Assembly: GCA_040367435.1 (NCBI GenBank)
Contig: BAABWY010000001.1
Location: forward strand, 1-64,000
Length of the DNA stretch: 64,000 bases
Reading direction: 5' to 3'
Origin: Hyphomicrobiales bacterium 4NK60-0047b
Lineage (GTDB): Bacteria > Pseudomonadota > Alphaproteobacteria > Rhizobiales > HXMU1428-3
Below, piece after piece: positions 20,680 through 52,142 of this stretch. The notes beneath the pieces were generated by a model. The model was not told the DNA's origin. It saw nothing but the letters and a program-made list of their open reading frames with translations, and made no database searches. A program made the translations under genes and the position numbers. The stretch's first letter is position 1. The number at the start of each line of letters is the position of its first letter.

Positions 20680-20803
20680 ACGAAGAAGGAGCTCGGCCCA
20701 CTTCGGGCTGAGGGACATGGCGTAGCGCCAGCGAAGCCCGGCGCAAGCGACGCCCCTCGGAGGCCCAAGCGCCATAAGCGCTTGGAATAGCCGTGAGAGA
20801 AAA
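20680..20803 (+). repeat. Long four-hairpin repeat, copy A
   Basis: It starts CGAAGAAGGAG and ends AATAGCCGTGAGAGA. Between these linkers are hairpin 1 (CTCGGCCC-loop-GGGCTGAG), the linker GGGACATG, hairpin 2 (GGCG-TAG-CGCC), hairpin 3 (GGCG...CGCC region), the linker CGCCCCTCGGAGG and hairpin 4 (CCAAGCGC-loop-GCGCTTGG). No T-tract follows, so it is not a simple terminator. Its end lies 13 bp before the next start codon. Confidence 0.85.
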
Positions 20804-20815
20804 CAGAGAGAGAAT

Positions 20816-21142
20816 ATGCCTCAAGCAGATATAAAATATAGCAGTGACTTAAATCTAGATTGCACTGCCATACTCGCCTCCATTGAACAGACAATTAAAC
20901 AACACGATCAAACATCTGGAGCCTGCAAAGGCCGAGCGTACAAAGCGGATCACTTTCATCACACCCATATCTATGTCAATCTTGCCATGCTCCCCAAACC
21001 CCATCGTGACAAAGAGTTTACTAAAGCCCTGATTAGCGACTTAGAAAAAATGGTGAAACAACACCTCACCCGATCCTGTCATTTTTCATTGAATGTAGAA
21101 TATACAGGCGAAGGCTACATCACAAATTTCCATGACGTTTAA
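20816..21142 (+). CDS. 5-carboxymethyl-2-hydroxymuconate isomerase family protein
   Basis: A 108-aa protein of the tautomerase-related CHMI family. After Met1 comes Pro2, which after Met removal would be the catalytic N-terminal proline. The middle has the family-like stretch HHTHIYVNLAMLPKPHRDKE followed by a long helix. Family members isomerise 5-carboxymethyl-2-hydroxymuconate in homoprotocatechuate breakdown, but no other gene of that pathway is near, so the substrate here is unknown. It is flanked on both sides by long structured repeats, with the 3' end of copy A just upstream. Confidence 0.7.
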   Translation: MPQADIKYSSDLNLDCTAILASIEQTIKQHDQTSGACKGRAYKADHFHHTHIYVNLAMLPKPHRDKEFTKALISDLEKMVKQHLTRSCHFSLNVEYTGEGYITNFHDV

Positions 21143-21213
21143 AAAGGAGTAAGAGAGAAAAACTTCACCCCCCACTTACAACAACATTATTAATGATAAT
21201 ACATTCTCAAATT

Positions 21214-21375
21214 CCGAAGAAGGAGCTCAGTCCTCTTCGGGCTGAGGGACATGGCGAAGCGACTGCGGAGCCCGGGGCAAGCCCCGCCCCTCGAAGGTTT
21301 AATCGCTTAAGCACGGTTGCTAGTGGGCAACTGAAGTGCCACAAAATAGCGTTTGAAATAGCCGTGAGAGAGAAA
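21214..21375 (+). repeat. Long four-hairpin repeat, copy B, interrupted by short form
   Basis: It has the same linkers as copy A (CGAAGAAGGAG, GAGGGACATGG, GCCCCTCGAAGG, AATAGCCGTGAGAGA). Hairpin 3 is GGGGC-AA-GCCCC, compared with GGCGC-AA-GCGCC in other copies, a compensatory change. Hairpin 4 is split by an inserted short-form hairpin (CGGTTGCTAGTGGGCAACTGAAG, split here as CGGTTGCTAGTG and GGCAACTGAAG, at about 21310-21345). The end abuts the stop codon of the ABC-F gene. Confidence 0.85.
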
Positions 21376-21377
21376 AG

Positions 21378-23210
21378 CTACCCCTCAATCTCTTCCCGCA
21401 TCATCTCAAGCTCTAGCCATTTTTCTTCTAAAGCTTGATGCTCAGCGGTGAGTGCTGCAATTCCCTCCATTGCCTCATTAAATCGTTTCGGATTTTTTGT
21501 GAATAGATCAGGGTCTTCAAGCGCTTTATTATGAGCTGCAATCTGAGCTTCAATGTCCTCAATCTGCTTTGGCAAAGTCTCTAAAGCGTATTTATCTTTA
21601 TAAGAAAGTTTAGCTCCCTTTTTCGCCGTTTTTTGTTGAGGGATCTCGCCTAAAGAGGCGGCCTCAGAAAGCTTGCTTTTAGAAGGTTTCTCACCGGCCT
21701 GAACTGACCGGCTTTTCATCTCATCTTTGCGCTGCGCCATCATAGTGCTATAGCCACCAGCATATTCAGTCCAATTGCCTTGCCCCTCATAAACCAAAAC
21801 AGCATCAACAATCCTGTCAATAAAGTCACGGTCATGACTAACAAGCAATACGGTTCCATCATAATCAGTGATGAGTTCTTGCAGCAGATCAAGTGTCTCA
21901 AGATCAAGGTCGTTGGTTGGTTCATCAAGCACCATCAAATTCGATGGAAGTGAAAGCGCCCGCGCAAGCATCACCCGTGCCCGCTCTCCTCCAGAAAGCA
22001 CATCCAATGGCGTGCGCGCTTGAGCAGGGTCAAATAGAAAGTCCTTCATATAACCAATGACATGTTTGGGTTTACCTGCAACCTCCACCATATCCCCCCC
22101 CCCGTTGGTCAAAGCATCTGCCAACGTCCAGTTTGGCTTCAAACTTTCCCGGCTCTGATCTAGAGTGACCATGTCGATATTCGTGCCAATTTTGATCTCG
22201 CCAGCGTCCGGTTCCAATTGCCCTGTGAGCATCTTGATGATGGTTGACTTACCAGCCCCATTGGGGCCAACAATCCCAAGCCGGTCTCCTCGAAGCAAAC
22301 GCACGCTCAGCTCATTAACAATTTGCGCGGGGCCAAAAGATTTAGAGATCTTTTTCGCCTCAACAACAATCTTGCCAGAAACACGCCCTTCACTGGTCTC
22401 CATCTTAACGGACCCTTTAGGTCCCCGGTGCTCTCTGCGTTTTTGGCGCAGCGAATGCAAATCCCCAAGCCGTTTTTGATTGCGCTTGCGCCGCGCCGTC
22501 ACCCCATAACGGAGCCAGTGCTCTTCAGCCACAATCTTGCGGTCAAGTTTGTGGGCTTCCATTTCTTCTTGCTCAAAAACTTCATCTCGCCAAGCTTCAA
22601 ATTTATCAAACCCCTGCTTCATCAAACGAGAGGTTCCTCGATCAATCCATAAAACAGATTTTGAAACAGTTTCCAAAAACTTCCGGTCGTGACTAATAAC
22701 AACCAGGGCAGAATTGAGAGAACGCAGTTCTTTCTCTAGCCATTCAATGGCCGGTAAGTCTAAATGGTTGGTTGGTTCATCAAGCAACAAAATATCTGGT
22801 GCTGGAGCAAGAGCCTTGGCAAGTGCAGCGCGTCTTTGTTCGCCACCAGAGAGTTGTGTCGTCCCCTCTTTACCTGTCAGTCCTAATTGCTCTAAATAAT
22901 AGTCTGCCTGGTAAGCATCTTCTTCGCTGACCAAACCACTTCGCGCATAGTCACCTGTTGTCTCAAATTTTGTAAGATCTGGTTCTTGCTCGAGATATTG
23001 CATGGTCGTGCCAGGCTGCACAAACCGCTCACCATCATCCATCTCAATCAACCCGGCAGCAATCTTTAGAAACGTGGATTTCCCGCAGCCATTGCGACCA
23101 ACCAAACAAATACGGTCCCCCTCAAAAATAGACATTTCCGCCCCGGTTAAAATAGGGTTCCCCCCAAAGGTGAGGTGGATATTTTGCAAAGTTAAACGGG
23201 GCGGTGCCAT
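21378..23210 (-). CDS. ABC-F family ATPase, Uup-like
   Basis: A 610-aa protein with two ABC cassettes and no membrane helices. Cassette 1 has GRNGCGKST, LSGGEQRR and LLLDEPTNHLD; cassette 2 has GPNGAGKST, LSGGERARV and MVLDEPTNDLD. A C-terminal coiled coil (about the last 75 residues, KQIEDIEAQIAAHNK) resembles Uup, which acts on DNA branch structures or ribosomes. The ATG at 23210 follows AGGA; an in-frame extension of 36 codons upstream is hydrophobic and unlike the family. It is the last gene of the minus-strand stretch 25247-21378. Uup versus another ABC-F subgroup is not fully settled. Confidence 0.9.
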   Translation of the reverse strand: MAPPRLTLQNIHLTFGGNPILTGAEMSIFEGDRICLVGRNGCGKSTFLKIAAGLIEMDDGERFVQPGTTMQYLEQEPDLTKFETTGDYARSGLVSEEDAYQADYYLEQLGLTGKEGTTQLSGGEQRRAALAKALAPAPDILLLDEPTNHLDLPAIEWLEKELRSLNSALVVISHDRKFLETVSKSVLWIDRGTSRLMKQGFDKFEAWRDEVFEQEEMEAHKLDRKIVAEEHWLRYGVTARRKRNQKRLGDLHSLRQKRREHRGPKGSVKMETSEGRVSGKIVVEAKKISKSFGPAQIVNELSVRLLRGDRLGIVGPNGAGKSTIIKMLTGQLEPDAGEIKIGTNIDMVTLDQSRESLKPNWTLADALTNGGGDMVEVAGKPKHVIGYMKDFLFDPAQARTPLDVLSGGERARVMLARALSLPSNLMVLDEPTNDLDLETLDLLQELITDYDGTVLLVSHDRDFIDRIVDAVLVYEGQGNWTEYAGGYSTMMAQRKDEMKSRSVQAGEKPSKSKLSEAASLGEIPQQKTAKKGAKLSYKDKYALETLPKQIEDIEAQIAAHNKALEDPDLFTKNPKRFNEAMEGIAALTAEHQALEEKWLELEMMREEIEG

Positions 23211-23304
23211 AAAAAGTCCTGAGATTAGAAAAAGAATGAAAGATAGCTTCTGATAAAAAACTATTTCTAACGTAACAGGACTGTTTTGGAAAGCATAACT
23301 AACC

Positions 23305-23778
23305 TTAAAAAAGAGCAACCGGTTTTTCGATCATCAAGGCAAAAATGATCATAATAGACAGGAAAGCTGGCCACCCTAAAATAAACCATCGTTTATAAAG
23401 CGTATGAAACCGCTGCGGCAAAGCTCCCCCCATTGCGGAAGCTTGTAGGGCGATGTTTTTCATCTCAATTTGCATAAACACAACCGGTATCCAGCAAATA
23501 CCAATGAAAATATAAAGCGCTATACTCAACAAAACCCAATGATCAAAAAAGCTATATCCAACGCCGTGCACCAAAAGTGCGCCTGTTATGGGCTGAACAA
23601 GCACAGCTGTTAACGTAAACATGTAATCTGCTAAAACAACCAAAGGCGCAACACTTGCGATCACCTCAACAGACTTTGAGCGAACAGCAAAGAACATAAA
23701 AAACGCAATGCCCATTCCCGTTCCAAATAAAACACACGCCCCTAATATATGCAGATATTTTAATATAAAATAACTCAT
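23305..23778 (-). CDS. DUF2269-like integral membrane protein
   Basis: A 157-aa membrane protein with four hydrophobic segments. The N-terminus YFILKYLHILGACVLFGTGMG and an overall four-helix layout resemble the DUF2269 family of predicted integral membrane proteins, whose function is unknown. The ATG at 23778 overlaps the stop of the upstream gene as ATGA, so translation is coupled. Pairing with the SDR/DoxX gene suggests a shared membrane role, but none can be named. Confidence 0.75.
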   Translation of the reverse strand: MSYFILKYLHILGACVLFGTGMGIAFFMFFAVRSKSVEVIASVAPLVVLADYMFTLTAVLVQPITGALLVHGVGYSFFDHWVLLSIALYIFIGICWIPVVFMQIEMKNIALQASAMGGALPQRFHTLYKRWFILGWPAFLSIMIIFALMIEKPVALF

Positions 23779-25247
23779 CGTTTTTCGTGCAACCCCATAA
23801 GAATCCAAATTAAGAGAAGAGGTAACAACAAAGAAAACCCCCAACCTAAAAATCCATGAAAACTAGTGACGTAAGTAAACCCCATAACACTTACCCAAAT
23901 TAACATAAGGCTCTTAATCACCCCGCCAACACGTATCCAGGGTTTAGAAAGAAACATAACGCCGCACATAATGGTCAACAAAGCAAACCCTGCAATTTGA
24001 TAAAGGTCAGAACTAGCTTTTAATAAAAACAGAGGCGCAAAATCTTTTATTCCCTGAAGCGCTTCAACCCCTTCAAAAATCCAGCTTAGGCCCAAAACCC
24101 AACGCAAAAAGGGGAGGAGAAAATAACAGCGCGCAAATTGCCGCTCTACAGCACTCGACTGATGAAGCGCTAAAATTTCAGGAACAGCCAATGTTGGACG
24201 GCCCAAAAGTTTCATAAAAGCTGAGCCATCATGTGGCGTGAATAAATCCATCTGCTCTAGAGACGCCGTCCTGATCGGCCCTCTATTACCAAGCATCGAG
24301 GCAAAATCACCAACCCACATAACAGGCTTTATCACCCAACGCGGAATAATAATTGGAATGCCCTTTGAAAACCCAAGCCAAGCCCTATAATATTGAATAA
24401 GCTCTTTTAAAGTAACGACATCCTGCCCCACAGCATAAACCATCTGCCGAGAAAAAGGGCACTCTATCAACTCACCTTCTTCGACACCTGAACCAGCACT
24501 TGAACGCTTCAAAGGAGCTAGCATCTTAACTATGCCATCCGCTAAATCATCAAGTGCAATCGGTTGAAAAGCTTGTGTACCAGGGCCGGGCAAAGGCAAA
24601 AACTTTGGCAATCCAGCTAACCCTTGTATGAGCGCCGCACCGCCAATGGACCCAGCGCCTAAAACCAGGTCTGGGCGAATGATCGTCCAGTTTAAGGACG
24701 TCTCTTCCAAATAATGTTCGCCAGTAAGTTTACTTGAAGCATATTCAGGCAACCCTTCCACACTGGCCTCTTTATCAAAATGAGGTTCCGCTAGCAGCTC
24801 TTCACCAGTCTCACCTTCTTTCGTATGCTCGTCTTCTTTCATATAAGAGGCGTTTGCGTGAGACGCTTTGTATTTACCACCACCAATTTCCTCACGCCCA
24901 AGCGTTGTCGCCGAAATATGAATAAAGCGTTTTATAGAGGCTGTCTCAGCACCTTGAAATAAAGCCCGAGCGCCTTCGCCATGAACAAATTGTGCATCAT
25001 CCTGTAAATCAGATTGCAAAATGCCAACACAATTCACAACCATCTCAAAGCCACGCAACCGCTCAGCCCAGATATCTGGATTGAGATCATTGTTAAAATC
25101 ACAATAGATCCAGGGAATTGTTGGCACCAACCGCTCAGCCAATTGCAGATCACGCCCAGCGCCGGTCACATCATGCCCTGCACGCAAAAGCGCTTGTACA
25201 ACACCCCGACCAATAAATCCATAGCCACCGGTTACCAAACATTTCAT
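23775..25247 (-). CDS. NAD(P)-dependent epimerase/SDR with C-terminal DoxX-like membrane domain
   Basis: A 490-aa two-part protein. Residues 1-300 are an atypical/extended SDR with the nucleotide loop GGYGFIGRGVV at 7-17, YASSKLTGE carrying the YxxxK pair, and IIRPDLVLGAGS. Residues about 355-490 hold four hydrophobic helices of DoxX type. Fusions of this kind are known among bacterial predicted nucleoside-diphosphate-sugar epimerases, but the substrate is not. The gene is translationally coupled to the DUF2269-like gene by an ATGA overlap. Confidence 0.85.
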   Translation of the reverse strand: MKCLVTGGYGFIGRGVVQALLRAGHDVTGAGRDLQLAERLVPTIPWIYCDFNNDLNPDIWAERLRGFEMVVNCVGILQSDLQDDAQFVHGEGARALFQGAETASIKRFIHISATTLGREEIGGGKYKASHANASYMKEDEHTKEGETGEELLAEPHFDKEASVEGLPEYASSKLTGEHYLEETSLNWTIIRPDLVLGAGSIGGAALIQGLAGLPKFLPLPGPGTQAFQPIALDDLADGIVKMLAPLKRSSAGSGVEEGELIECPFSRQMVYAVGQDVVTLKELIQYYRAWLGFSKGIPIIIPRWVIKPVMWVGDFASMLGNRGPIRTASLEQMDLFTPHDGSAFMKLLGRPTLAVPEILALHQSSAVERQFARCYFLLPFLRWVLGLSWIFEGVEALQGIKDFAPLFLLKASSDLYQIAGFALLTIMCGVMFLSKPWIRVGGVIKSLMLIWVSVMGFTYVTSFHGFLGWGFSLLLPLLLIWILMGLHEKR

Positions 25248-25405
25248 GGAGTAAACCCCCTACAAAAATTTACATCCCACAAACAAAAACAGCGCCCCTA
25301 TTGAGCGCTGTAAATAAGTTTAATTCAAGTCTATTTTTAGAAACATCGCTTAAAAGCAACGGATTACACCACATGTAATAAGTCTGAAAAAATAAAAATG
25401 TCTAC

Positions 25406-25553
25406 ACGAAGAAGGAGTGACGCTACTTCAGCGGTCAGGACATGGCAGCTTTGCTGCCCGGTGCTATTGCGGATGCTAGTGGGCATCTGAAGCACAAAAA
25501 TGCCGCCCCTCGGAGGCCCACTGCTTCAGCAGTGGAATAGCCGTGAGAGAAAT
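25406..25553 (+). repeat. Long four-hairpin repeat, copy C, interrupted by short form
   Basis: Hairpin 1 is TGACGCT-loop-AGCGGTCA, hairpin 2 is GGCAG-CTTTG-CTGCC and hairpin 4 is CCACTGC-TTCA-GCAGTGG, all with arm sequences different from copies A and E but still paired. Hairpin 3 is split by a short-form insert (GGATGCTAGTGGGCATCTGA at about 25465-25484, then AGCACAAAAA). Linkers GGACATGGC, GCCCCTCGGAGG and AATAGCCGTGAGAGA are intact. Confidence 0.88.
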
Positions 25554-25578
25554 AATACCTTTCTAAGCAGAGCTTAGA

Positions 25579-25611
25579 AGCGCGGTTGCTGGTGGGCAAC
25601 CTAAAGCGCCA
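25579..25611 (+). repeat. Short-form hairpin repeat
   Basis: The stem GGTTGC pairs with GCAACC around a TGGTG loop, followed by TAAAGCGCCA. Copies elsewhere have GGATGC/GCATCT in the same places, so the arms covary. The repeat ends at the base before the ssb stop codon. Confidence 0.75.
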
Positions 25612-26142
25612 CTAAAATGGTATTTCGTCATCCAATTCTTTTTCAAAATTACTTGGAGCGGCACTTGGTTGAGAATTATCAGCTGGAACTTGTCCCCAGC
25701 TTGGCTCACCACCAAAATTGTTGTTCTGGTTATTATTGTTATTCTGATAATTGCCCTGATTGCTAGACTGGCTACTAGATTGTCCGCCCGAGCGACCATC
25801 AAGCATGGTCAAATTGCCATTAAACCCTTGCAGCACAATCTCAGTTGTATATTTGTCTTGGCCATTATTATCTTGCCATTTGCGTGTTTGTAGGCTGCCT
25901 TCAATATAAACCTTAGCGCCTTTTTTCAAATATTGCTCTGCAACCCGGCACAAACCTTCATTGAAAATAACAACACGGTGCCATTCTGTTTTTTCACGGC
26001 GTTCACCAGAGTTTTTATCTTTCCAGCTTTCAGTCGTCGCAATGCTTAAATTCACCACAGGACGGTTATCCTGCATGCGCCGCACTTCAGGGTCGGCTCC
26101 AAGATTACCAACCAAAATCACTTTATTAATAGAACCAGCCAT
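25612..26142 (-). CDS. ssb: Single-stranded DNA-binding protein
   Basis: A 176-aa SSB. The N-terminal OB fold spans about 1-110 ([49 protein letters not shown]). A Gln/Asn/Ser-rich flexible linker follows, and the protein ends in the acidic interaction tip DDEIPF. It binds single-stranded DNA in replication and repair. A double SOS box lies about 337 bp upstream. In many alphaproteobacteria ssb and uvrA are close neighbours; here they are 4.2 kb apart with other genes between. Confidence 0.96.
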
Positions 26143-26478
26143 TGCTAACTCTCCTTCATATCAAACTTAACTTATGAAACTTAACTGTAAGGCCAGCAAA
26201 AAATTAAGCCTGCCAATTTTAACTACTATCACTTGGGTTTAGACCCTAAATCCCCATACCGGCACATTAAAGCAATTTTCTGCGTAAAACTGAGATGCGA
26301 GACAATTCTCCACAAACAAATCCATTTTCATCAAGAATTTTTCGCATTTACAAAGAGGTAAACCCCTCAAATCAGCAACAACACGAAAATTCTTGGCCTC
26401 TAGGTAAACAAAACGATAACTGTTTCTCAGTTTAAAAAACCGCCCAGCCCAGTAAAAAAAGGCTTATTGACACCTTAC

Positions 26479-26504
26479 GTTCCAATTATGTTCTCAAATT
26501 GTTC
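26479..26504. promoter_or_regulatory. Double LexA/SOS box (GTTC-N7-GTTC-N7-GTTC)
   Basis: Three GTTC blocks occur at 26479-26482, 26490-26493 and 26501-26504 with exactly seven bases between each. GTTC-N7-GTTC is the established alphaproteobacterial LexA operator, so this is two overlapping sites. The nearest divergent genes are ssb (start 337 bp away) and the MAPEG-like gene (start 513 bp away). SOS control of ssb is the likelier role. Confidence 0.8.
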
Positions 26505-26918
26505 TAAAATATTGACAATTCTGTCGCTTAATTGTCTCATTCCATGGTACAATTAACCCATTCAGTTCAACTTTCTTTGACAGATATTTTTTAATTCGTT
26601 ACCCAAAGATTAGAGACTTCTTGTTAAGCTAACAATTAGATGACATACCAATTTACCGTGCAAATCTGTCAAATTGTCTGATAAATTGCCAGATAAATTG
26701 AATGTCTCAAAAAATGAAATGTGCGACTTCAGTCTGTAGGGGGACTTAAAAACTGCTCCCCTTTATATTCGGACTTCTTTCAAAATTGAACCCAGAGCAT
26801 CATAAAATGCCTGGTTCATTGATAGAATAGCTATTGAAAATAGCTGAAGGCACATTTTAAACAAAAGAATCAGTTGAATGGCCCTAACGGGACATACTTA
26901 GCAGTCTAGTTCATGCAA

Positions 26919-26934
26919 TGTGATTTAAATCACA
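26919..26934. promoter_or_regulatory. CRP/FNR-family operator (perfect palindrome)
   Basis: TGTGA-TTTAAA-TCACA is a perfect palindrome matching the CRP consensus TGTGA-N6-TCACA. It also has the TGAT-N4-ATCA core of FNR/DNR sites. It lies 83 bp upstream of the MAPEG-like start, in a position suited to activation. Which regulator binds is not known. Confidence 0.6.
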
Positions 26935-27016
26935 TACCTGAACAGCTTTTAAATAATATTCTCTAAGTCATAAGAGAAAAATTATTAAAGATGTCAGCTA
27001 AGCGAAACCTAAAATA

Positions 27017-27649
27017 ATGAAAACAGAAAAAAGTAACAGCGTAATGAAATCCGAATTCTCAATTAATCAGTCAATGGAAGACCGCCTGGAGCGTTTCTCA
27101 CGCCAAGGCCGCCCGCTACATAAGGACCAAAAAAGGTTCCTACAGATAGCAGCCATCACAGGCATCTTTTGCGCCATCTGGTTTCTCATTGGCAAACATA
27201 CACTCCACTTCACACCTGAAAGCTGGGATACTTATCCTGACCGTCTCGCATTCTTAATGAAAGTAATGGTGTTTGTGACGCTGCCACTATTAATGGGTAT
27301 CACATCAATTGCTTTCCAAAGATTAGATCCAAGAAATGTGATTGGTCAAAAGCTAAGAACCGATACCCCAGCTGATATTAACAAGCGCTTCCTTGCTAAC
27401 ACAATTGAACAAACCCTTCTGTTCTTCTTTGTACACAGCGCCATTGTTTACTATTCACCAGCTGATGAAGCCATTAGTACAATCCTGCTAGCATCACTCT
27501 TTATTGTAGGCCGCCTGATTTTCTGGATTGGCTATCACAAAGACAAATTCACCAGAGCATTAGGCTTTGGCATTACTTTCTACCCAATTGTTGGGGCTTA
27601 TATGTGGGTAATGATCAGAATTATATTCGATTATCACATTCCTCTATAA
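27017..27649 (+). CDS. MAPEG-like membrane protein
   Basis: A 210-aa protein with an about 40-residue polar N-terminus and four hydrophobic segments. The second half (NTIEQTLLFFFVHSAIVYY, then RLIFWIGYHKDKFTRALGFG) carries the NxxE and RAxG-like patterns of the MAPEG superfamily (microsomal glutathione transferases and relatives). The enzymatic role is unproven. A CRP/FNR-type palindrome lies 83 bp upstream and a strong terminator 30 bp downstream, so it looks like a single-gene unit. Met1, Met10 or Met16 could be the start; the first is used here. Confidence 0.65.
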   Translation: MKTEKSNSVMKSEFSINQSMEDRLERFSRQGRPLHKDQKRFLQIAAITGIFCAIWFLIGKHTLHFTPESWDTYPDRLAFLMKVMVFVTLPLLMGITSIAFQRLDPRNVIGQKLRTDTPADINKRFLANTIEQTLLFFFVHSAIVYYSPADEAISTILLASLFIVGRLIFWIGYHKDKFTRALGFGITFYPIVGAYMWVMIRIIFDYHIPL

Positions 27650-27678
27650 TGGGATTTGAAAATCCTCAACGAATAACA

Positions 27679-27719
27679 AAAAACCCGTCATCCAACTCAA
27701 TTGGATGACGGGTTTTTGG
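27679..27719 (+). terminator. Intrinsic terminator after MAPEG-like gene
   Basis: AAAAACCCGTCATCCAAC pairs with TTGGATGACGGGTTTTT around a TCAA loop: a long perfect stem ending in a T run on the plus strand and, by symmetry, on the minus strand. It can serve both the MAPEG-like gene and the convergent pentapeptide-repeat gene. Confidence 0.93.
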
Positions 27720-27785
27720 TTATTCAGCTAAATTCTATAAATAAACAACTGAGAAAAACAAAACACTCAGATTAAAATCATGTGT

Positions 27786-29891
27786 TTAAAAACCATCCCT
27801 GCGCCGGCGGTGCACTTCAAATAATAGCTTTTCTTGTAAAGAAGGCTTGATCAAATTAAACACACCACATTCAGCTGACTGCATCTGCTTTAAAAAGCTT
27901 TCAATATTGCCAGAAAAGTTAGGCTTGGCCACGCGAACAATAATCCCTGCTGTTGTCTCCATACTCACACGAGCATTCTGACAAGCAACATTAATCACAA
28001 AGTCAGTATAAACTTTCTGGAAACTTGTCTGATCAGCTTGTTCGAATTGAATTTTAAAACCAGACCAGGCTTTAAAATCCTTACTTTGCTTCCATGCATC
28101 AACACTCTTCTTAGATAAAAGATCATTCATTTTATCCCTGAGTTCTTTGCTAATTTTATTAGTTAAAGTCTTCTTCAAGGCTTTTATCGCTACATCACTA
28201 GGTGGTTCAACATTCATATTAGCAAAATAAACAGGAGCTGAAGCATCTATCGTTGGTGGTAATGGCCCCCAAATTTCAGATGAAGAAAAATCAGCCCCAC
28301 CAATTTCAGCGTCTGTAAAATTAGTTCCAAACAGATCTGCCAAAGTTAAATCAGCCACGTTTAATTGCGCAGTCTCAAACGAAACACCCTGCAATTGAGC
28401 AAGAGAAAAAATCGTTCCTTGCAAATTCGCATTGCCAAAATTACTCCCCAGTGCTATCGCACCAGAAAAATCAGCACCCTGCATTTGCGCACCAAAGAAG
28501 TTACTCTCAGGCATCACAGCATTCACGAAAGAAGCCTGTCCACCTTTAGCAGATTCAAATGAGCTTTGTGAAAGTATAGCCCAATCAAAACGAGTCCCTT
28601 CAAGTAAGGCGTTATTAAATTTAGTCCCACGAGAATAAGTTGAACGAAAATCAGCAAATCTTAAATCAGCGGAAGAAAAATCAGCTTCTCCCAATTGCGC
28701 ACAACCACGTTTTTGAAAACCTTCAACAGTTGCATTCGCCAAATCTTCTTCTTGCAACTCTGTGCAACCAAATTTGGCTTTTTTCAAAACCGCACCAACA
28801 AGCTTAGCATTCCCAAGCAAAGTATTTGTAAAATCAGCACCTTGTAAATCAGATCGGCTTAAATCTGCATAGCGCAAATTCCGCCCCCGCAGAGAAATTG
28901 TCACATCTTCAGAAGCAGAATCTTGAGTGGTCACCAAATCCTCATCAACAACAATCAAGTTGCGATGAAACATATTTTTAAAGCCACTGGCAGTATGGCC
29001 AGTGTTAGAGAAGAAATAAGCAGTCGGTGAGAATATTTTAGATGTTACCACACCATCTTTTTTATTTGTAACTTTCTGAATAACCGTTTTAGTAAACCCA
29101 TCAAACTTGCTCAATTGGCGGTCAATCCACTCATCTGGGAATGTCGCTACACAAACAGAGAAGAACAAACCAAACAGCACAGCTATGAGTGTGACATAGA
29201 AATTCGTTGCGTTTTGCGTACTGGTCCGTGCCAAGGCTTGCCAAAAATTTGCGTTTGGCTTGCGCAAGAAAATACCAACGCCAAGCAAAATGATAATCTC
29301 TACCATAAAGAAAATCCGGTGCGCCCAGGTAATCCCTTCATTATGATAAGGCAAGAACGTCACCTGAAAATAAAGAATGAGAAACACAGGCAACAACACC
29401 AGCGATAACCAAACCATGCCATGCAAGAACATAGCAAAAACAGCGCTTCGATTTGAACCAGCCAGGGCTTGTGTGTAGAAATAACTATGCAGCTCTAACC
29501 GCAACGGATGCCGTCTTTTTCCGCGCCAACTCTCATCCTCAACCAAGATGTCATCAAGCTCAATAATTTTTCGAGAAAGCAAAACATGCTGCACAAGCAA
29601 GCCAAAATGCACAAAAAGCAAGACCAAAGGGCCAAAAAGAAAAAAGCTATCAAGCCTCAAAGCAATTCCAAGAAAGGGAAGCACAACCGGTGCGTTTAAT
29701 AACAAATCTTTATGAGAAACACTTGCCGCCGCAATGAATAAATAGGCAAGGAGTGCTAGAAAAAACAACCAGCCATTTCGGGCTGCAATACTTGCCTCGT
29801 TAACGGACATAAGCAAAGAACGGGCTGTTCCCTTTAACGTCTCATCCCCAACAGGTTTCACATGACCAGGCTGTACATGACCAGTATTCAC
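27786..29891 (-). CDS. Membrane protein with pentapeptide repeats
   Basis: A 701-aa protein. Residues about 35-270 contain five or so membrane helices (for example LFFLALLAYLFIAAASV and FYVTLIAVLFGLFFSVCV). From about 345 to 545 there are many A(D/N)LxX/F pentapeptide repeats (LRYADLSRSDLQGADFTNT, FSSADLRFADFRS), which fold as a right-handed quadrilateral helix. A C-terminal region of about 150 residues follows, ending in RRRRDGF. Pentapeptide domains joined to membrane segments are of unknown function. It is convergent with the MAPEG-like gene and shares the terminator between them. Confidence 0.85.
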   Translation of the reverse strand: MNTGHVQPGHVKPVGDETLKGTARSLLMSVNEASIAARNGWLFFLALLAYLFIAAASVSHKDLLLNAPVVLPFLGIALRLDSFFLFGPLVLLFVHFGLLVQHVLLSRKIIELDDILVEDESWRGKRRHPLRLELHSYFYTQALAGSNRSAVFAMFLHGMVWLSLVLLPVFLILYFQVTFLPYHNEGITWAHRIFFMVEIIILLGVGIFLRKPNANFWQALARTSTQNATNFYVTLIAVLFGLFFSVCVATFPDEWIDRQLSKFDGFTKTVIQKVTNKKDGVVTSKIFSPTAYFFSNTGHTASGFKNMFHRNLIVVDEDLVTTQDSASEDVTISLRGRNLRYADLSRSDLQGADFTNTLLGNAKLVGAVLKKAKFGCTELQEEDLANATVEGFQKRGCAQLGEADFSSADLRFADFRSTYSRGTKFNNALLEGTRFDWAILSQSSFESAKGGQASFVNAVMPESNFFGAQMQGADFSGAIALGSNFGNANLQGTIFSLAQLQGVSFETAQLNVADLTLADLFGTNFTDAEIGGADFSSSEIWGPLPPTIDASAPVYFANMNVEPPSDVAIKALKKTLTNKISKELRDKMNDLLSKKSVDAWKQSKDFKAWSGFKIQFEQADQTSFQKVYTDFVINVACQNARVSMETTAGIIVRVAKPNFSGNIESFLKQMQSAECGVFNLIKPSLQEKLLFEVHRRRRDGF

Positions 29892-30246
29892 GATTACTTA
29901 CTCCCACACCAATAACGCATAGCTATACATAACTTTAGTGGCCACTTTAGCCGATCCAAATGAAAAAGAGAACATCCTCATTTATTTCTATTTATTACTG
30001 TGTATTTTGAGTGACGGACTAAAATCCTAAAAATCAAACAAATATAAAGACATCCTTCCACTCAAAAGTGCAAATATAACCCATATATAGATAGCTAAGG
30101 CTGCAAAAAACAATTGAACATCGCTTATTAGCACCACCAAAAATGATTGAAACAGGATATATCGCAATTTCCAAAAAGACGGCTTGCATTTAACAAGTCT
30201 GAAGATTAAAAAACAACCGATAGCACATTAACATATTACTTTCTTT
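29892..30246. other. Intergenic region upstream of uvrA
   Basis: A 355-bp AT-rich stretch. I searched by eye for GTTC-N7-GTTC or its complement upstream of uvrA and found none. No open frame or RNA gene is apparent before the long repeat at 30247. Confidence 0.4.
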
Positions 30247-30359
30247 ACGAATAAGGGAGTGCTCTTCTAAGAGCACGCACATGACGCCAGGGGCGTCCGG
30301 CGCAAGCGCCGCACCTCGTAGGCCTGCAGCTTCAGCTGCAGAATAGCCGTGAGAGAAAA
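30247..30359 (+). repeat. Long four-hairpin repeat, copy D
   Basis: Hairpin 1 is GTGCTCTT-CT-AAGAGCAC (perfect), hairpin 2 GACGCC-AGG-GGCGTC, hairpin 3 GGCGC-AA-GCGCC and hairpin 4 CTGCAGC-TTCA-GCTGCAG. Linkers are CGAATAAGGGA, CACATGACG, GCACCTCGTAGG and AATAGCCGTGAGAGA. It ends 16 bp before the uvrA ATG. The GTG in its last linker is in frame with uvrA. Confidence 0.9.
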
Positions 30360-30375
30360 CAGAGAAGCACTTAGA

Positions 30376-33300
30376 ATGTCAAAGAATATTACTGTTCGCG
30401 GCGCTCGTGAACATAATTTAAAAAATGTGACAGTTGAGTTGCCCCGTGAAAAGCTCATTGTATTCACTGGTCCCTCAGGCTCAGGAAAATCCTCACTTGC
30501 CTTTGACACAATATATGCCGAAGGACAGCGCCGTTATGTAGAAAGCTTGTCGGCTTATGCCCGCCAATTTTTGGAAATGATGCAAAAGCCAGATGTCGAT
30601 GCCATTGAAGGTCTGTCTCCTGCCATTTCAATTGAACAAAAAACCACATCCAAAAACCCACGCTCGACCGTAGGCACCGTCACAGAAATTTATGATTATC
30701 TACGTTTGCTTTTTGCTCGTATTGGCATTCCTTATTCACCAACAACCGGCTTGCCCATCTCAAGCCAAACGGTCACTCAAATGGTCGACCAAATCATGGA
30801 ACTCAAAGAAGGCACAAGAGCCTACCTACTTGCGCCTATCATCAGAGGCCGCAAAGGCGAATATAGAAAAGAATTCGCAGAGCTCATGAAAAAGGGCTTT
30901 GGACGTGTAAAAGTTGACGGTCAGTTTTATGAAATAGCCGACGTCCCGGCATTAGATAAAAAATTCAAACATGATATTGATGTAGTCGTCGATCGCATCA
31001 TCGTACGTGCTGACATTGCCTCAAGACTAGCAGACAGTTTAGAAACCGCGCTAGAACTAGCCGATGGTCTCAGCATCCTAGAATTAGCTGATCCGGCTAA
31101 AGAGCCAGAAGATCAAGAGCGGTTAATCTTTTCAGCCAACTTTGCCTGCCCAGAATCTGGCTTTACTATTGAAGAAATCGAACCAAGACTTTTTTCTTTC
31201 AACAACCCTTTCGGCGCTTGCCCAAAATGTGATGGCCTAGGCACACAATTAAAATTCGAAGCAGATCTGGTCATCCCAAATCCGAAACTAAGTTTGAAAG
31301 ACGGCGCAATCCAACCCTGGGCTAAAACAGGCAACACCTCTCCCTATTATGCTCAAACTCTGGAAGCTATTTCAAAACATTACAAAGTCCCCATGACTAA
31401 CTCCTGGGAAAGCCTGAGCGAAGAGATGCAATCAACCATTCTTTATGGCTCTGGTAATGAAGAAATTACCTTCAAATATGAAGATGGCACCAGAAGCTTC
31501 AAAACAAAAAAACCGTTTGAAGGCGTGATTAACAACATCGATCGCCGCTGGCGCGAAACAGAGTCTAATTGGGTCAGAGAAGAACTATCAAAATACCAAT
31601 CAGCTCAACCCTGTGCACATTGCGGCGGCGCCCGTTTAAAACCGCAAGCGTTAGCTGTAAAAATCAACGATCAACACATTGGTGACATTGCCGAAATGTC
31701 AATCAAAGAAGGATTAAAGTGGGCAACTGATCTCCCCCCTCACTTGAGCAAGAAACAACTGCAAATTGCAGAACGAATTTTAAAAGAAATTCGTGAACGC
31801 CTAAACTTCCTCAATGATGTCGGCCTTGATTATCTTTGCCTTTCACGAAATTCCGGCACCCTCTCTGGCGGAGAAAGCCAGCGCATTCGCTTAGCCTCTC
31901 AAATAGGATCCGGGTTAACAGGCGTACTCTATGTATTAGATGAACCCTCAATCGGCCTACATCAACGCGACAACGCCATGCTATTGGAAACATTGAAAAA
32001 TTTAAGAGACCTTGGCAACACAGTCATCGTTGTCGAACATGATGAAGACGCTATTCTAGCAGCTGATCATGTGCTTGATATCGGCCCTAAAGCTGGTATC
32101 CATGGCGGAGAAATAGTCGCCGCAGGCACACCTAAAAAAATCATGTCCACCAAAAAGAGTGTGACAGGACAATACCTCACTGGTGAAAAATTTATCGCGC
32201 CCCCACAAAACAGACGGCAACCAGATGCAAGCCGTCAAATCACAGTCAAAGGGGCTAAAGAAAACAACCTCAAGAACATTTCAGCCAGCATTCCAATGGG
32301 GCTTTTCACTTGTCTAACGGGTGTTTCTGGCGGAGGAAAATCAACGTTCCTCATCGAGACTTTATATAAAGCAACAGCGCGCAAGTTAAATAACGCCCGC
32401 CATGTGCCAGGTGAACATGAGAGCATAGAAGGCCTCGAGCAACTCGACAAAATCATCGACATTGATCAATCTCCAATTGGCCGAACGCCGCGCTCTAACC
32501 CCGCCACCTATACAGGCGCATTTACACACATCAGAGATTGGTTCGCGGGCTTGCCTGAATCAAAAGCACGTGGCTACAAACCGGGTCGTTTCTCCTTTAA
32601 CGTTAAAGGCGGACGCTGCGAAGCCTGCCAGGGTGATGGTGTCATTAAAATTGAAATGCACTTCTTGCCAGATGTTTATGTGACATGCGACCAATGTAAG
32701 GGCAAACGTTATAATCGCGAAACCCTGGAAGTCCAGTTCAAAGGAAAATCCATCGCAGATGTTTTAGACATGACAGTTGAAGAAGGCGCAGAGTTCTTCA
32801 AAGCCGTCCCTTCTGTTCGTGATAAAATGGAGACCTTAAACCGCGTTGGCCTCAGCTACATTAAAATCGGCCAGCAAGCCACAACCCTTTCTGGCGGCGA
32901 AGCCCAGCGCGTAAAACTAGCCAAAGAACTCTCCAAACGAGCAACGGGGCGCACATTCTACATCCTTGATGAACCAACCACCGGCCTTCATTTTGACGAT
33001 GTCGCCAAATTACTAGAAGTGCTGCATGAACTTGTCGAGCAAGGCAATACAGTCGCTGTCATTGAACATAATCTGGAAGTGATTAAAACCGCAGACTGGA
33101 TCATTGACCTCGGTCCTGAAGGCGGGGATGGTGGCGGCGAAGTCGTAGCAGTTGGTCCGCCAGAAGAAATCGTCAAAGAAAAAAGAAGCTACACAGGTCA
33201 ATTCTTAAAAGAATTACTAGAGAGACGCCCTATTTCACAAGATAAAACCGTGAAAAACTCAAACGCATCTCAGAAAACAAAACCCGCGCCTAAAAAGAAA

Positions 33301-33414
33301 GCTGCAAAAACAACATCAAAACCTGCAGCAAAACCAACAACCAAAACAACGGCAAAAGTAAAATCAACAAGAAAAACAACACCTAAGAAGAAAGCAACAA
33401 AACAGACAACTTGA
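30376..33414 (+). CDS. uvrA: Excinuclease ABC subunit A with Lys/Thr-rich tail
   Basis: A 1012-aa damage-recognition ATPase of nucleotide excision repair. Two ABC modules are clear: [12 protein letters not shown] and [12 protein letters not shown], then [13 protein letters not shown] and [12 protein letters not shown]. Zinc modules appear as CPESGF...CPKCDG and CEACQGDG...CDQCKG. After the normal end (about residue 955) there is an unusual tail of about 57 residues made mostly of Lys, Thr, Ala and Pro ([19 protein letters not shown] and so on), resembling histone H1-like tails. The ATG at 30376 was chosen because it gives the usual UvrA N-terminus; a GTG nine codons upstream lies inside the preceding repeat. 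Confidence 0.96.
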
Positions 33415-33528
33415 TAAAAATTGCTAATCTCATGATAAAGACCTGATCTTAACTTTGCCTGAAAAAGAACTTGCTCAGAGATGAGATGCCTTCTACCCTT
33501 CTTATTACAATCATAAGGGAGGTACTGA

Positions 33529-34113
33529 ATGCGCAATTTGTTAAAATCATTTTGTCCAAATATCGCAAATCTAATTCTATCAACTCTGGCAATCATTGTG
33601 GCCACCACAATTACCCTCACTAGCGCAACAGCTCATGGCCCAACACGCCAAAAAGTCACCAAAAAAGTAGAGATAAACGCCAGCCCGGCTCAAGTATGGG
33701 CTGCCGTTAAAAACTTTGACAACATGAATTGGCACCCAGCCATAGAAAAAACCACCGGCAAAGGTGGAAACGCAATTGATGCTACCCGCCAGCTAACCTT
33801 AAAAGGCGGCGCAACCATTGATGAAGTCCTTTATAAATATAGCGAAGAGAAAATGAGCTATTCATATCGGATCACAAAAGTGGATGTAAAAGTCCTTCCC
33901 ATAAACAATTACTCATCTCACTTGACGGTTGAACCCGTTGAAGGATCTGACGGCAAAAAATCAACCGTCACCTGGAAAGGCGCATTCTATCGTGGTTACA
34001 TGAACAATGATCCACCCGAAAATCTAAATGATGCCGCCGCAATAAAAGCTGTAACCGGTGTTTATGAATCTGGCCTAGCCGCTTTAAAGAAACAAATTGA
34101 ATCAGGCTCTTAA
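33529..34113 (+). CDS. Exported SRPBCC family protein
   Basis: A 194-aa protein with a signal peptide (hydrophobic LILSTLAIIVATTITLTS, cleavage near TAHG). The rest fits the polyketide cyclase/START-like SRPBCC fold: KVEINASPAQVWAAVKNFDNMNWHP at the start and a long C-terminal helix (AAIKAVTGVYESGLAALKK). The fold binds hydrophobic ligands; the ligand is unknown. The start follows AGGGAGG. It overlaps the next gene (an exported beta-propeller) by about 17 bp, so the two are likely coexpressed in the periplasm. Similar pairs occur near PQQ-dependent alcohol oxidation genes, but no such genes are in view. Confidence 0.8.
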   Translation: MRNLLKSFCPNIANLILSTLAIIVATTITLTSATAHGPTRQKVTKKVEINASPAQVWAAVKNFDNMNWHPAIEKTTGKGGNAIDATRQLTLKGGATIDEVLYKYSEEKMSYSYRITKVDVKVLPINNYSSHLTVEPVEGSDGKKSTVTWKGAFYRGYMNNDPPENLNDAAAIKAVTGVYESGLAALKKQIESGS

Positions 34114-35125: not shown

Positions 35126-35235
35126 GTGCCTTTGGGCGATTTATCTTAAATTGAGCCTTTGGGCGATTTATCTTAAATTGAGCCTTTGGGCACTTCATAC
35201 TAAAATAAACCCTTGAACACTTCATCAATAACGAA
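35098..35235 (+). repeat. 27-bp tandem repeat at the end of the beta-propeller gene
   Basis: Units starting GCCTTTGGGCGATTTATC lie at 35128-35154 and 35155-35181 (identical), with diverged units at about 35098, 35182 and 35210. The first unit includes the last codons of the beta-propeller gene (AFGRFILK). So the array began as duplications of the gene's own 3' end and has decayed outward. Confidence 0.85.
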
Positions 35236-35469
35236 GCCTTACCAAGAGAAACAAAACAAACGAATCACTTCAAACTACTCACCACCCGTCAACAAGAAAT
35301 ATCACTCAAAGCCCCTTTCCCACATAAAAACATGGCCCTAGTCATTCTCCTTTGAAAACCTCAAAATATAGGGCAAGATATTTTTTTAATTTTTTCCCCC
35401 ACCTGTGAATATGGGGGACAGTGCTCAACAGTCACTACAGAAACCATCAAAATTTTGTAAATTACACCC
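35236..35469. other. dnaB upstream region
   Basis: AT-rich sequence before dnaB. A hairpin of CCCCCA and TGGGGG with a 10-nt loop lies at about 35396-35417. It is preceded rather than followed by a T run, so on the plus strand it is not a terminator. No open frame is seen. Confidence 0.4.
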
Positions 35470-36984: not shown

Positions 36985-37023
36985 CATGCTATCATGTTTA
37001 ATTATAACTAATGGCACTAGTCT

Positions 37024-37235
37024 GAAAAGCGCTTGGAATAGTCGTGAGAGGTATAACGACGGTTGCTTTTCCTAGTTATAGTGGGCAACCTAGATTTGAA
37101 AATGATATCTAGATAAACGAAGAAGGAGCACGGCCCCGTCAGGGCCGAGGGACATGACGCCAGGGGCGTCCGGCGCAAGCGCCGCCCCTCGGAGGCCCAA
37201 GCGCGATTAAGCGCTTGGTATAGCCGTGAGAGAAA
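37024..37235 (+). repeat. Repeat cluster: fragment, short form and long copy E
   Basis: First comes a 3' fragment of a long element (GCGCTTGGAATAGTCGTGAGAG, split here as GCGCTTGGAATAG and TCGTGAGAG, 37028-37050). Next is a short-form hairpin with an enlarged loop (GGTTGC...GGCAACC, 37061-37090). A complete long copy follows at 37118-37235 (hairpin 1 GGCCC-loop-GGGCC, hairpin 2 GACGCC-AGG-GGCGTC, hairpin 3 GGCGC-AA-GCGCC, hairpin 4 CCAAGCGC-loop-GCGCTTGG). The long copy's last linker contains the GTG that starts radA. Confidence 0.88.
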
Positions 37236-42698: not shown

Positions 42699-42747
42699 AT
42701 TTCTCAATAAAACTTGAAAAGCTAAAACCTAGCCTGAATATATAGAA

Positions 42748-42786: not shown

Positions 42787-42878
42787 ATTGCCAAAAGTGT
42801 TGATTTTGCTAAAAACAACATTTCCCACCATGAAGCAGTAACGCACTCAAAATAAGAAGCACCAAAAGGAGATAACAA

Positions 42879-43595: not shown

Positions 43596-43607
43596 GTTGT
43601 CACCAGA

Positions 43608-44402: not shown

Positions 44403-44453
44403 AGAAAACCTTCGTTCAAACATCTAGGCTTAAGTAACTGCAATTGACCCAAT

Positions 44454-45251: not shown

Positions 45252-45255
45252 AGCG

Positions 45256-46824: not shown

Positions 46825-46921
46825 GACTTTTCAATCCAGTCTATAAATCAGTTGTTATATTCTTATAAAATCAAAATTTGCGGGGCTAGCTAGGCTCTAA
46901 AGCAAAACACTTATAAAATAC

Positions 46922-48088: not shown

Positions 48089-48154
48089 AATATCACGCAC
48101 TCATTGATCAAAAGAAGGCTTGGAATAGGTTTGATATTCAATACAATTCCCCCC

Positions 48155-48829: not shown

Positions 48830-48923
48830 CTCATCCCCCTTTAAAAGCCAAATGCACCGAAAACCAAATGTACAAAACGATCCATATTAAAATTCTTGGC
48901 ACCGTTTTATCAAAAGTGTTTTA

Positions 48924-50129: not shown

Positions 50130-50578
50130 TCATCAACCCCAAACTTTTAAGAAAACTAGCACCGCAAATTCTCTGATCAGTCTTTATCTTTTATATTCAA
50201 TCGCAAACATTGATTTAGACTAATATACTTCAAACGAATTTTACATATTAAAAAGGTGCTTCAATCAGAATTTTAAGAAGAGATAACAAGTATCCTGCAA
50301 GACTTAAAAACACAATGAGAGTTAAGTGAGAACACAGAACCACTAAATGTACGAAAATTCAAACAATAAACCCAGAAGACAAACTAATGTTTTACACAGC
50401 AATTTGAAGCTATTACATCGTTTATTAAATTCAAACTCTGAACAAAACACCCCCTCACAAAACCAATAAAAACCATCGCTCTAAAAGTCAAAGCAACTGT
50501 TCCACAGGCTGTCACAGCAGTGTCATTCACTTTTGTTAGCCAATATTATCGAACTTAAAGCTTGGGATAACTTTTACG
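50130..50578. other. Divergent intergenic region dac / btaA
   Basis: A 449-bp AT-rich stretch with no credible open frame, repeat or strong hairpin. It presumably holds promoters for the carboxypeptidase gene and btaA. I could not assign them with confidence. Confidence 0.4.
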
Positions 50579-51928
50579 ATGAACGCACCTGCAACAAAAA
50601 CGATCGAAAAAACACACAAAGCAAAGCTGATACGAAAAGCAGTGCGCCAAAGTGAGCGAACAAAAAAACAATCTTTTCTTGACCAATTATTCGCGCAGCT
50701 TTTCTCAGGCCTTGTCTATTCCCAAATTTGGGAAGACCCAGTGGTAGACCTCGCTGCAATGGAAATCAATGAGACACATCACATTGTAACCATTGCCTCT
50801 GGCGGTTGTAATGTCATGAATTACCTCATGGCAAAACCAGCTAAAATTACAGCCGTTGATCTAAACAGAGCCCATGTTGCCCTAACACGGACAAAATTAT
50901 GCGCCGCTCAAAATTTTCCAGATTATAAAACCTTTTATGATTTTTTTGCTGTCCCCAATAATAATGACAACCAAAAGTCATACGACAAATATCTAAGTCC
51001 CAATCTAGATGAAACAGCAAAAAGCTATTGGCAAGGTCGCGATAAAACAATGCGCCGCCGTTCTAGATATTTCACTGATAACATTTATCATCGCGGCCTC
51101 CTTGGCAACTTCATCGGCCTAAGCCATTTTTTAGCAAAAGCTTATGGAATCAAGTTTGATGACCTACTAAATGCAAAATCGATCGATGAACAAACAGAAT
51201 TTTTTGAGAAAAAACTCTCACCACTATTAGACAAAAAACTAATCACCTGGATCACCTCACATCCAGCCTCCCTATATGGCCTCGGCATTCCTCCGGCTCA
51301 ATATACGGAGCTGGCTAAATGTGCTGATGGTGATATGGCAGAAGTCCTAAGACAGCGCCTAAGAAAACTTTGCTGCGATTATGACATCAACCAAAATTAT
51401 TTCGCATGGCAAGCTTTTGGGCGGCAATACAGTGCGGATGCGGGTGGGCATCTGAAGCACAAAAAAGTTGCGGATGCCGCGACGGTTGCTGGTGGGCAAC
51501 CGAAGGAGCATATAAAAAGTCATCTGAAGTACAAAAACGACAACGGTGCATTACCCCCTTATCTTCAAGTGCAAAATTACGAAGCCGTAAAAGACTTTGC
51601 AATGAACGTGTCAGTCCACCAAACCTCGATTACAGATAAATTAAATTCAATGAAGCCAGGAAGCGTAGATAGGGTTGTCTTACTTGACGCACAAGACTGG
51701 ATGGACGATGAAACTTTAAACGAACTTTGGGATGCCATAACAAGAGCAGCAGCATCAGATGCAAAAGTCATTTTCCGCACAGCCGGCATTGAAAGCATCC
51801 TTCCAGGCCGCGTGAAAAACAGCACTCTATCAAAATGGGCATATCAAGCAGAAGCATCAAAAGATTATACTAAGAAAGACCGCTCAGCGATCTATGGCGG
51901 TTTCCATCTCTATAATTTCATTGGCTGA
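50579..51928 (+). CDS. btaA: Diacylglycerol 3-amino-3-carboxypropyl transferase, with repeat-derived insertion
   Basis: A 449-aa protein of the BtaA/DUF3419 family. It transfers the 3-amino-3-carboxypropyl group of SAM to diacylglycerol, the first step to the betaine lipid DGTS. Typical sequences are LVYSQIWEDPVVDLAAM, IVTIASGGCNVMNYL and AVDLNRAHVALTRTK, which form the SAM site. Between FAWQAFGRQY (ending at residue 284) and ALPPYLQ (from about 324) there are 39 residues encoded by two short-form hairpin repeats plus a fragment, read in frame (SADAGGHLKHKK, TVAGGQPKEH). BtaA proteins usually pass directly through this stretch, so it is an insertion. BtaB follows 229 bp downstream. Confidence 0.92.
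   Translation: MNAPATKTIEKTHKAKLIRKAVRQSERTKKQSFLDQLFAQLFSGLVYSQIWEDPVVDLAAMEINETHHIVTIASGGCNVMNYLMAKPAKITAVDLNRAHVALTRTKLCAAQNFPDYKTFYDFFAVPNNNDNQKSYDKYLSPNLDETAKSYWQGRDKTMRRRSRYFTDNIYHRGLLGNFIGLSHFLAKAYGIKFDDLLNAKSIDEQTEFFEKKLSPLLDKKLITWITSHPASLYGLGIPPAQYTELAKCADGDMAEVLRQRLRKLCCDYDINQNYFAWQAFGRQYSADAGGHLKHKKVADAATVAGGQPKEHIKSHLKYKNDNGALPPYLQVQNYEAVKDFAMNVSVHQTSITDKLNSMKPGSVDRVVLLDAQDWMDDETLNELWDAITRAAASDAKVIFRTAGIESILPGRVKNSTLSKWAYQAEASKDYTKKDRSAIYGGFHLYNFIG
51431..51538 (+). repeat. Short-form hairpin repeats inside btaA coding sequence
   Basis: Copy one at 51431-51466 is GCGGATGCGGGTGGGCATCT plus GAAGCACAAAAAA. A partial GCGGATGC follows at 51470, copy two at 51481-51510 (GACGGTTGCTGGTGGGCAAC) and a 3' fragment GTCATCTGAAGTACAAAAAC at 51519-51538. 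All are in frame with btaA and introduce no stop. Confidence 0.88.
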
Positions 51929-52025
51929 AACCGATAAGATCATCCATAAAACGCTGATGAGAAAGTAGTATCAAATCAAGACCAAACCCTGTTTAGAAAA
52001 ACCTGTGAGACAACAGCTCGAGTAT

Positions 52026-52142
52026 TCCGAAAAAGGAGTGACGCCAGTTCGGCCGTCAGGACATGGCAGCTAGACGGATACTTGTGGGCATCTGAAGCGC
52101 ATTGATAACGACGGTTGTTGGTGGGCAATCGAAAGAGCATTA
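52026..52142 (+). repeat. Long repeat copy G, truncated, with two short-form units
   Basis: It begins CGAAAAAGGAG with hairpin 1 TGACGCC-loop-GGCCGTCA and linker GGACATGGCAGC. It then breaks into a short form (GGATACTTGTGGGCATCTGA, 52075-52094) and a second short form (CGGTTGTTGGTGGGCAATCG, 52112-52131). The long element's second half is missing. It lies between btaA and btaB, ending 15 bp before the btaB start. Confidence 0.8.

Follow-up and report, generated by a model that had tools for sequence, protein, structure and literature searches.

The window analysed here, a stretch of 64,000 nucleotides of Hyphomicrobiales bacterium 4NK60-0047b (contig BAABWY010000001.1, positions 1 to 64,000), contains several copies of a repeated element of ~115 nt with the architecture GAAGAAGGAG - HP1 - GGACATG - HP2 - HP3 - N-CCTCG-N'-AGG - HP4 - AATAGCCGTGAGAGA, in which HP1 to HP4 are hairpins, N and N' pair with each other, and the final part is referred to below as the tail. 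Analysis of this genome (G000) and other genomes of the order showed that the element is strongly polar with respect to replication, that its hairpins behave as cassettes, that most of its sites are stable, and that it is spread across Hyphomicrobiales. With moderate confidence, we interpret it as a chromosomal, non-autonomous DNA element, similar to repetitive extragenic palindromes (REPs), whose hairpins are exchanged on the lagging strand of the replication fork.

An earlier note on this DNA had described copies A to E and a truncated copy G of a four-hairpin repeat. These copies are real, A to E being matched by the covariance model R1 (built from 60 copies) and G being recognised in the sequence, and all are on the + strand:

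20682..20800, + strand: copy A, complete (R1, 111 bits; tail at 20786-20800)
21216..21371, + strand: copy B, with a repeat of a second family, F2, inside the HP4 loop at ~21311-21345 (R1, 86.8 bits)
25408..25550, + strand: copy C, with an F2 repeat inside the HP3 loop at ~25464-25500 (R1, 88.5 bits)
30249..30356, + strand: copy D, complete, upstream of a uvrA-like gene (R1, 101.8 bits)
37029..37051, + strand: remnant, HP4 3' arm and tail AATAGTCGTGAGAGG (tail search, 2 mismatches)
37119..37233, + strand: copy E, complete, between dnaB-like and radA-like genes, the name radA being an interpretation of Pfam domains (R1, 116.8 bits; Pfam)
~52028..52142, + strand: copy G, decayed, with the head, HP1 and part of HP2, followed by F2-like repeats (sequence)

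The linkers, which the note had given as common to the copies, are conserved overall but not all exact: copy D starts with CGAATAAGGGAG and has GCACCTCGTAGG, and copies B and G have GCCCCTCGAAGG and CGAAAAAGGAG, respectively. Copy A combines HP1 arms CTCGGCCC/GGGCTGAG with a long HP2, an HP3 with one mismatch and HP4 arms CCAAGCGC/GCGCTTGG; its site is occupied by an element with other hairpins in the sister species G003 and in G006 and G002. The site of copy B is occupied in G003 and empty in G006, copy C has orthologs in G006, G002 and G003, and copy D, with Pfam UvrA domains downstream, has a same-site element in G003. Copy G, which is without HP3, HP4 and the tail and was not returned by R1 at E ≤ 0.0001, corresponds in G003 to a fuller element (L257:3365-3581). 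When up to 3 mismatches were allowed, the tail gave 9 matches in the window vs. 1.5 expected; six of these are at copies or the remnant (four without any mismatch, one with 1 and one with 2), and the other three, each with 3 mismatches, are without an element. On its own, the head pattern (2 mismatches) was at chance level in the window (15 matches vs. 13.4 expected) and, therefore, the combination of parts is what counts. The window copies between 25408 and 37233 are near ssb-, uvrA-, dnaB- and radA-like genes (Pfam), probably by chance.

In alignment A1 (60 copies, aligned with MAFFT independently of the structure), pairing is seen in 94.3% of the 1639 cells, compared to 73.8% in shuffled controls and at most 43.7% in slid ones, the slide control being biased in favour of the structure because the latter was drawn from the copies of A1 themselves. 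Double changes were found at 24 of the 28 pairs, with 337 double-change cells vs. 95.6 after shuffling. The alignment thus gives firm support to the conserved structure of the earlier note, four hairpins whose arms covary. The linker pair N-CCTCG-N' is CG in 38, AU in 20, UG in 1 and other in 1 of the copies in A1; in a set of 47 copies drawn also from other genera, the pair is CG in 23, GC in 12, AT in 5, TA in 2 and unpaired in 5, so that all four Watson-Crick types occur. Among 2763 cells of clean hairpins from the own genome (model-fitted alignment; innermost pairs, inner HP2 pairs and hairpins longer than 26 nt left out), 2589 are Watson-Crick, 81 G-U, 40 A-C and 53 other; the corresponding counts for 1185 cells of A1 are 1135, 17, 8 and 25. 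The G-U:A-C ratio expected from the mutation spectrum of the linkers is ~0.96, compared to the observed 81:40, and therefore folding seems to take place in the written strand; yet, wobble pairs are rare. Three or more mismatches were found in 1/147 HP1, 1/144 HP3 and 4/131 HP4 hairpins and in 32/146 HP2 hairpins, a figure that, in our reading, mostly reflects a long form of HP2 whose internal loop is GAA/GAA.

Exact copies of the tail number 104 in the own genome (reversed-pattern control, 0), and R1 gave at least 150 matches there; these were all of the 150 candidates scored and, therefore, further copies may exist. Thus, the copies are many rather than few and, across the genome, pairing is kept in them rather than lost in most. 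At E ≤ 0.0001, R1 returned 152 matches in 42 stretches of the own genome covering 871 kb (these stretches, like those of G003 and G032 below, were picked around known copies and are not a random sample), and 145 of the 152 are on the majority strand of their contig. In 41 of the 42 stretches, the elements lie on the A-rich strand, the exception being L210 (skew +0.005); the pattern used in this comparison missed copies in L190 and L192 that R1 found, and for L196, which has one copy per strand, the strand was assigned from its contig. On contig C1, the 16S rRNA and rpoB genes are on the strand opposite to the elements, so that the element corresponds to the lagging strand there. The same polarity was observed in G003, with 37 of 38 copies on one strand, and in G032, which belongs to a different family of the order (~58% GC), where AT skew is uninformative and 21 of 21 copies are on the C-rich strand in all 7 contigs examined. 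In G033 (two copies) and G013 (one copy), the sign of a weak GC skew agrees with the element strand. Discordant copies are head-to-head partners of concordant ones in 5 of 7 cases in the own genome and in the one case in G003. In G000, the stretches of C1 and early C2 have a strong GC skew (−0.11 to −0.19), those at the end of C2 and in C3-C8 a weak one (−0.09 to +0.08), and the size of the AT skew is constant.

Orientation hardly follows transcription. Based on simple open reading frame calling, by which 128 of 150 copies were placed, an element is present in 30/74 convergent, 62/302 co-directional and 9/90 divergent gaps, and in co-directional gaps it runs in the direction of the genes in 47 cases and in the opposite direction in 32, so that a transcription-driven orientation was rejected.

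In blocks syntenic with G003 (87-94% identical), the script placed an element at the same site for 19 of the 22 own elements, of which 18 hold on a strict count; the 19 include L226:4778, the middle copy of a three-copy tandem, counted via its neighbours, and the three absences include alignment edges. Conversely, 20 of 22 G003 elements have a counterpart in the own genome by script, a count that includes L260:5226-, whose own partner site is actually without that copy; one of the two absences is the site of the decayed copy G. The sites are mostly stable, while single hairpins turn over independently.

Hairpin arms fall into recurring types, such as CTCAGCC (24), TGACGCC (18) and GTGCTCT (18) for the 5' arm of HP1. 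With types of fewer than 4 occurrences dropped, which left 53 to 126 of the 150 copies for each test, the association between the two arms of one hairpin is strong (z = 22.6-37.4), compared to that between a 3' arm and the 5' arm of the next hairpin (z = 1.7, −1.4 and −1.0; p = 0.052, 0.961 and 0.839, across median gaps of 6, 0 and 12 nt). The 135 scored copies contain 129 distinct hairpin combinations, and the exact arms and loop were found again in another copy for 41/143 HP1, 77/142 HP2, 89/127 HP3 and 46/124 HP4 hairpins. Hairpins thus behave as cassettes, with tightly linked arms and nearly unlinked neighbours.

The same behaviour was observed among orthologues in relatives with 73-96% flank identity (34 rows from 27 own loci, insert-bearing hairpins left out; some rows repeat a locus, namely L075/L180 and L153/L187). 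Swaps of at least 3 bases in both arms were found 13 times in HP1, 7 times in HP2, 12 times in HP4 and never in HP3, and in 6 of the 34 rows one hairpin was swapped while another had identical arms. Where flanks are at least 86% identical, 6 of 19 rows (4 of 15 own loci) contain a swap. The swapped types of the relatives are present in at least 3 own copies for 11/13 HP1, 6/7 HP2 and 6/12 HP4 swaps. For example, L223:8790 and L044:4941 are identical until HP4, which differs, the own copy having an insert there; L207:9772 and L087:6741 have HP4 in common and differ in HP1 and HP2; and L149 and L057 have HP1 and HP4 in common, but not HP2 or HP3. Single-sided, pair-breaking mutations are also present in close orthologue pairs. 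In the pair L198:15075 and L117:3849, both arms of HP1 (TTCAGCCC, CATTGCCC) have changed, and the long loop insert that they enclose is identical. The earlier note had taken covariation as direct evidence of a selected structure; the structure is firm, but the step from covariation to selection calls for caution, as many of the differences are whole-hairpin swaps among recurring types and template switching is another way in which arms could be mended.

A search with exact linkers had found the element in 7 of 61 genomes and suggested a genus-only family; this was overturned by R1, which has matches in 46 of the 297 sampled Hyphomicrobiales genomes, 26 of 122 genera and 8 of 8 genomes of the own genus, at most 12 matches being scored per genome. 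Among the matches listed, carriers include Methyloligella sp. DHS20C07, Rhodomicrobium sp. DHS20C08, several Hyphomicrobiales metagenome-assembled genomes (MAGs) and one Cohaesibacter MAG. In distant copies, the tail is mostly AATAGCCGTGAG(A/C)GA. Head-to-head dimers, with copies 17-33 bp apart and ends like TCTCTCACGGCTA and TAGCCGTGAGAGA at their borders, were found in G255, G018, G287, G159 and at the Cohaesibacter locus; the copies in G032 are direct tandems. Head-to-head pairs are rare in the own genome (5 in the 42 stretches). The close opposite-strand pairs of the own genome and G003 (L196:10153/10337, L189:6606/6808, L202:16523/16805, L227:17367/17614, L206:2289/2458 and L260:5226/5390) are head-to-head in 6 of 6 cases and tail-to-tail in none, like the dimers of other genera. 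No element was found in viral contigs by exact pattern search, or in plasmids (3 queries) or phages (1 query) by distant BLAST. No title or abstract describing the family was found in a literature search with thin coverage of subscription papers, and a text search with two forms of the tail, on both strands, returned no paper.

Two further repeats have the same polarity. F2, a mini-hairpin repeat with the core TGCTNGTGGGCA, is present in 165 strict copies genome-wide and forms tandem arrays with periods of ~33-50. In the window, it is found at:

21318-21336
25474-25492
25580-25609, + strand, outside any element, GCGCGGTTGCTGGTGGGCAACCTAAAGCGC (sequence)
37057-37095
52076-52142

F2 is concordant with the element strand in 148 cases vs. 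18 discordant, and F3 (AAGATCAGCCCGAAC...GCTGATC) in 45 vs. 7. F3 is often located within HP3, for example, in the loops of L006, L011, L012, L017 and L022. Elements make up 2.2% of the DNA examined and contain 33 of 166 F2 cores and 13 of 52 F3 cores; thus, hairpin loops are preferred places of insertion.

We propose that the element acts via single-stranded DNA at the fork, the written strand being the nascent lagging strand. Synthesis would stall at a hairpin, and the 3' end, located in a linker common to hundreds of copies, would re-pair with another copy, whose hairpin would be copied before return through the next common linker, that is, by template switching or very short-tract gene conversion on the lagging strand. 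Half-copied hairpins would be lost or repaired, which would keep the arms matched. New sites would arise rarely, by tandem duplication, head-to-head fold-back duplication or insertion of single-stranded DNA on the lagging strand.

Several points weigh against this proposal. No event of excision, insertion or template switching was seen, and ordinary RecA gene conversion combined with selection against mismatched hairpins, the nearest rival, could give an equal pattern. Differences that extend across all hairpins may in some cases stem from the loss of one of two tandem copies, and the association between HP1 and HP2 is borderline (p = 0.05). The leading and lagging strands are anchored by two expressed-gene loci, both on C1, and elsewhere by skew only (AT in G000, GC in G032); one copy in G267 is on the wrong strand for the skew of its contig (element −, GC skew −0.041). 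The excess of G-U over A-C would also fit selection on RNA. Finally, template switching at quasipalindromes in E. coli is reported to have a strand bias, with larger effects on the leading strand (PMC7202029, where a title in the reference list names the leading strand), so that a simple version of the lagging-strand model fits poorly.

Among other explanations, a mobile element similar to REPINs or miniature inverted-repeat transposable elements, moved by an unrecognised single-strand nuclease that targets the lagging strand as in IS200/IS605, with many masters and RecA conversion producing the variety, appears possible but doubtful. The lagging-strand polarity that the element has in common with F2 and F3, the concentration of F2 cores within elements and, in other genera, head-to-head dimers with TCTCTCACGGCTA...TAGCCGTGAGAGA-like ends all favour such an element; the sites, mostly common to the own genome and its sister species, and the almost unlinked neighbouring hairpins count against it. 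Nor was a Y1_Tnp domain (PF01797) found in the own genome (0 matches; 5 of 14 control genomes positive). Reverse transcriptase RVT_1 (PF00078), looked for as a sign of descent from a group II intron or retroelement, likewise had 0 matches there, with 3 of 14 control genomes positive. A Y1 transposase or reverse transcriptase was accordingly rejected as the driver; other transposases and recombinases were not searched for. A structured RNA (mRNA 3' end, stabiliser, terminator or small RNA) selected for folding would explain the two-to-one excess of G-U over A-C and the frequent location in convergent gaps, but orientation tracks replication (145/152) and hardly transcription (47 to 32), wobble pairs occupy only 81 of 2763 cells, and Rfam offers no match: cmscan of the window returned only two tRNAs at the gathering threshold, and the two matches at E ≤ 1 in 20600-37300 are not at an element. 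A known RNA family was thus rejected for the window, and we regard an RNA function as improbable.

Equally improbable, in our view, are host-selected polar sites that a directional machine reads or that have a use on the lagging strand, such as replisome reloading or re-priming: polarity in two families of the order, mostly stable sites and conserved linkers agree with such a role, but the patchy spread (46/297 genomes), the tandem arrays and the rapid change of hairpins do not, and we know of no protein that would serve it. It is unlikely, although slightly less so, that the elements are an undescribed class, with exchangeable 15-22 nt hairpin cassettes passed among hundreds of copies and with fixed linkers at fixed sites on one replication strand across the order, that function as lagging-strand sites and whose swaps record template switching at the fork. 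If exchange at the fork is correct, the elements would provide a natural record of template switching among dispersed copies, resolved to single hairpins. They also carry a warning that covariation among paralogous repeats may stem from cassette exchange and not from step-by-step compensatory mutation. The polarity common to three repeat families of one genome raises the question whether lagging-strand single-stranded DNA decides where and how bacterial palindromic repeats live. Replication polarity, cassette exchange, head-to-head dimers and order-wide spread were beyond the reach of the earlier note.

That note had likened the layout to rhizobial intergenic mosaic elements (RIMEs). RIMEs are carried by S. 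meliloti pSymB; R1 had no convincing match on a 50 kb stretch of it, and over its full length nothing reached E < 0.01, the best hit (E = 0.0108) having no conserved tail. RIME membership was therefore rejected as unsupported, the RIME sequence itself not being compared, and the likeness is one of layout only. RIMEs and the A/B/C elements resemble the element in size and mosaic palindromic make-up. The RIME and A/B/C mosaic elements of Sinorhizobium, of the same order, are likewise intergenic, with conserved sequence and secondary structure (PMC2573895). Bru-RS of Brucella, also of this order, is intergenic and palindromic and, by description, similar in size (118 nt) and copy number (222 copies) (PMC2267715); it could be a distant member of the family.

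With REP, BIME and REPIN sequences and their TnpA-REP (RAYT) transposases, the element has in common intergenic location, high copy number, hairpin DNA, compensatory stem changes and mosaic arrangements (PMC3116915, PMC6006769). Inverted doublets, another trait of REPs, are present in some other genera but rare in the own genome. It differs in its ~115 nt length, four hairpins, linker base pair, absence of a Y1 transposase match, strong lagging-strand polarity and exchange of hairpins as units. In REPs and REPINs, by definition, one short hairpin (21-65 nt) carries a GT[AG]G (or CGTC) tag at its foot (PMC6006769, PMC3733652); this tag is not in our consensus, which instead has GAAGAAGGAG before HP1. 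The CGTC-tagged REPs of alphaproteobacteria are also palindromic and predominantly head-to-head dimers, but are 20-40 bp long with one stem of 8-9 bp (PMC3733652), compared to four hairpins here. IS200/IS605 elements have a similar lagging-strand preference and subterminal secondary structures (PMC6006769), but no Y1 transposase was found in the own genome. The maintenance of hairpins by template switching likewise produces matched changes of several bases on the two sides of a stem; in that case, local reverse-complement copying creates or repairs the stem (PMC8794818), whereas in the element described here whole hairpins take the types of other copies.

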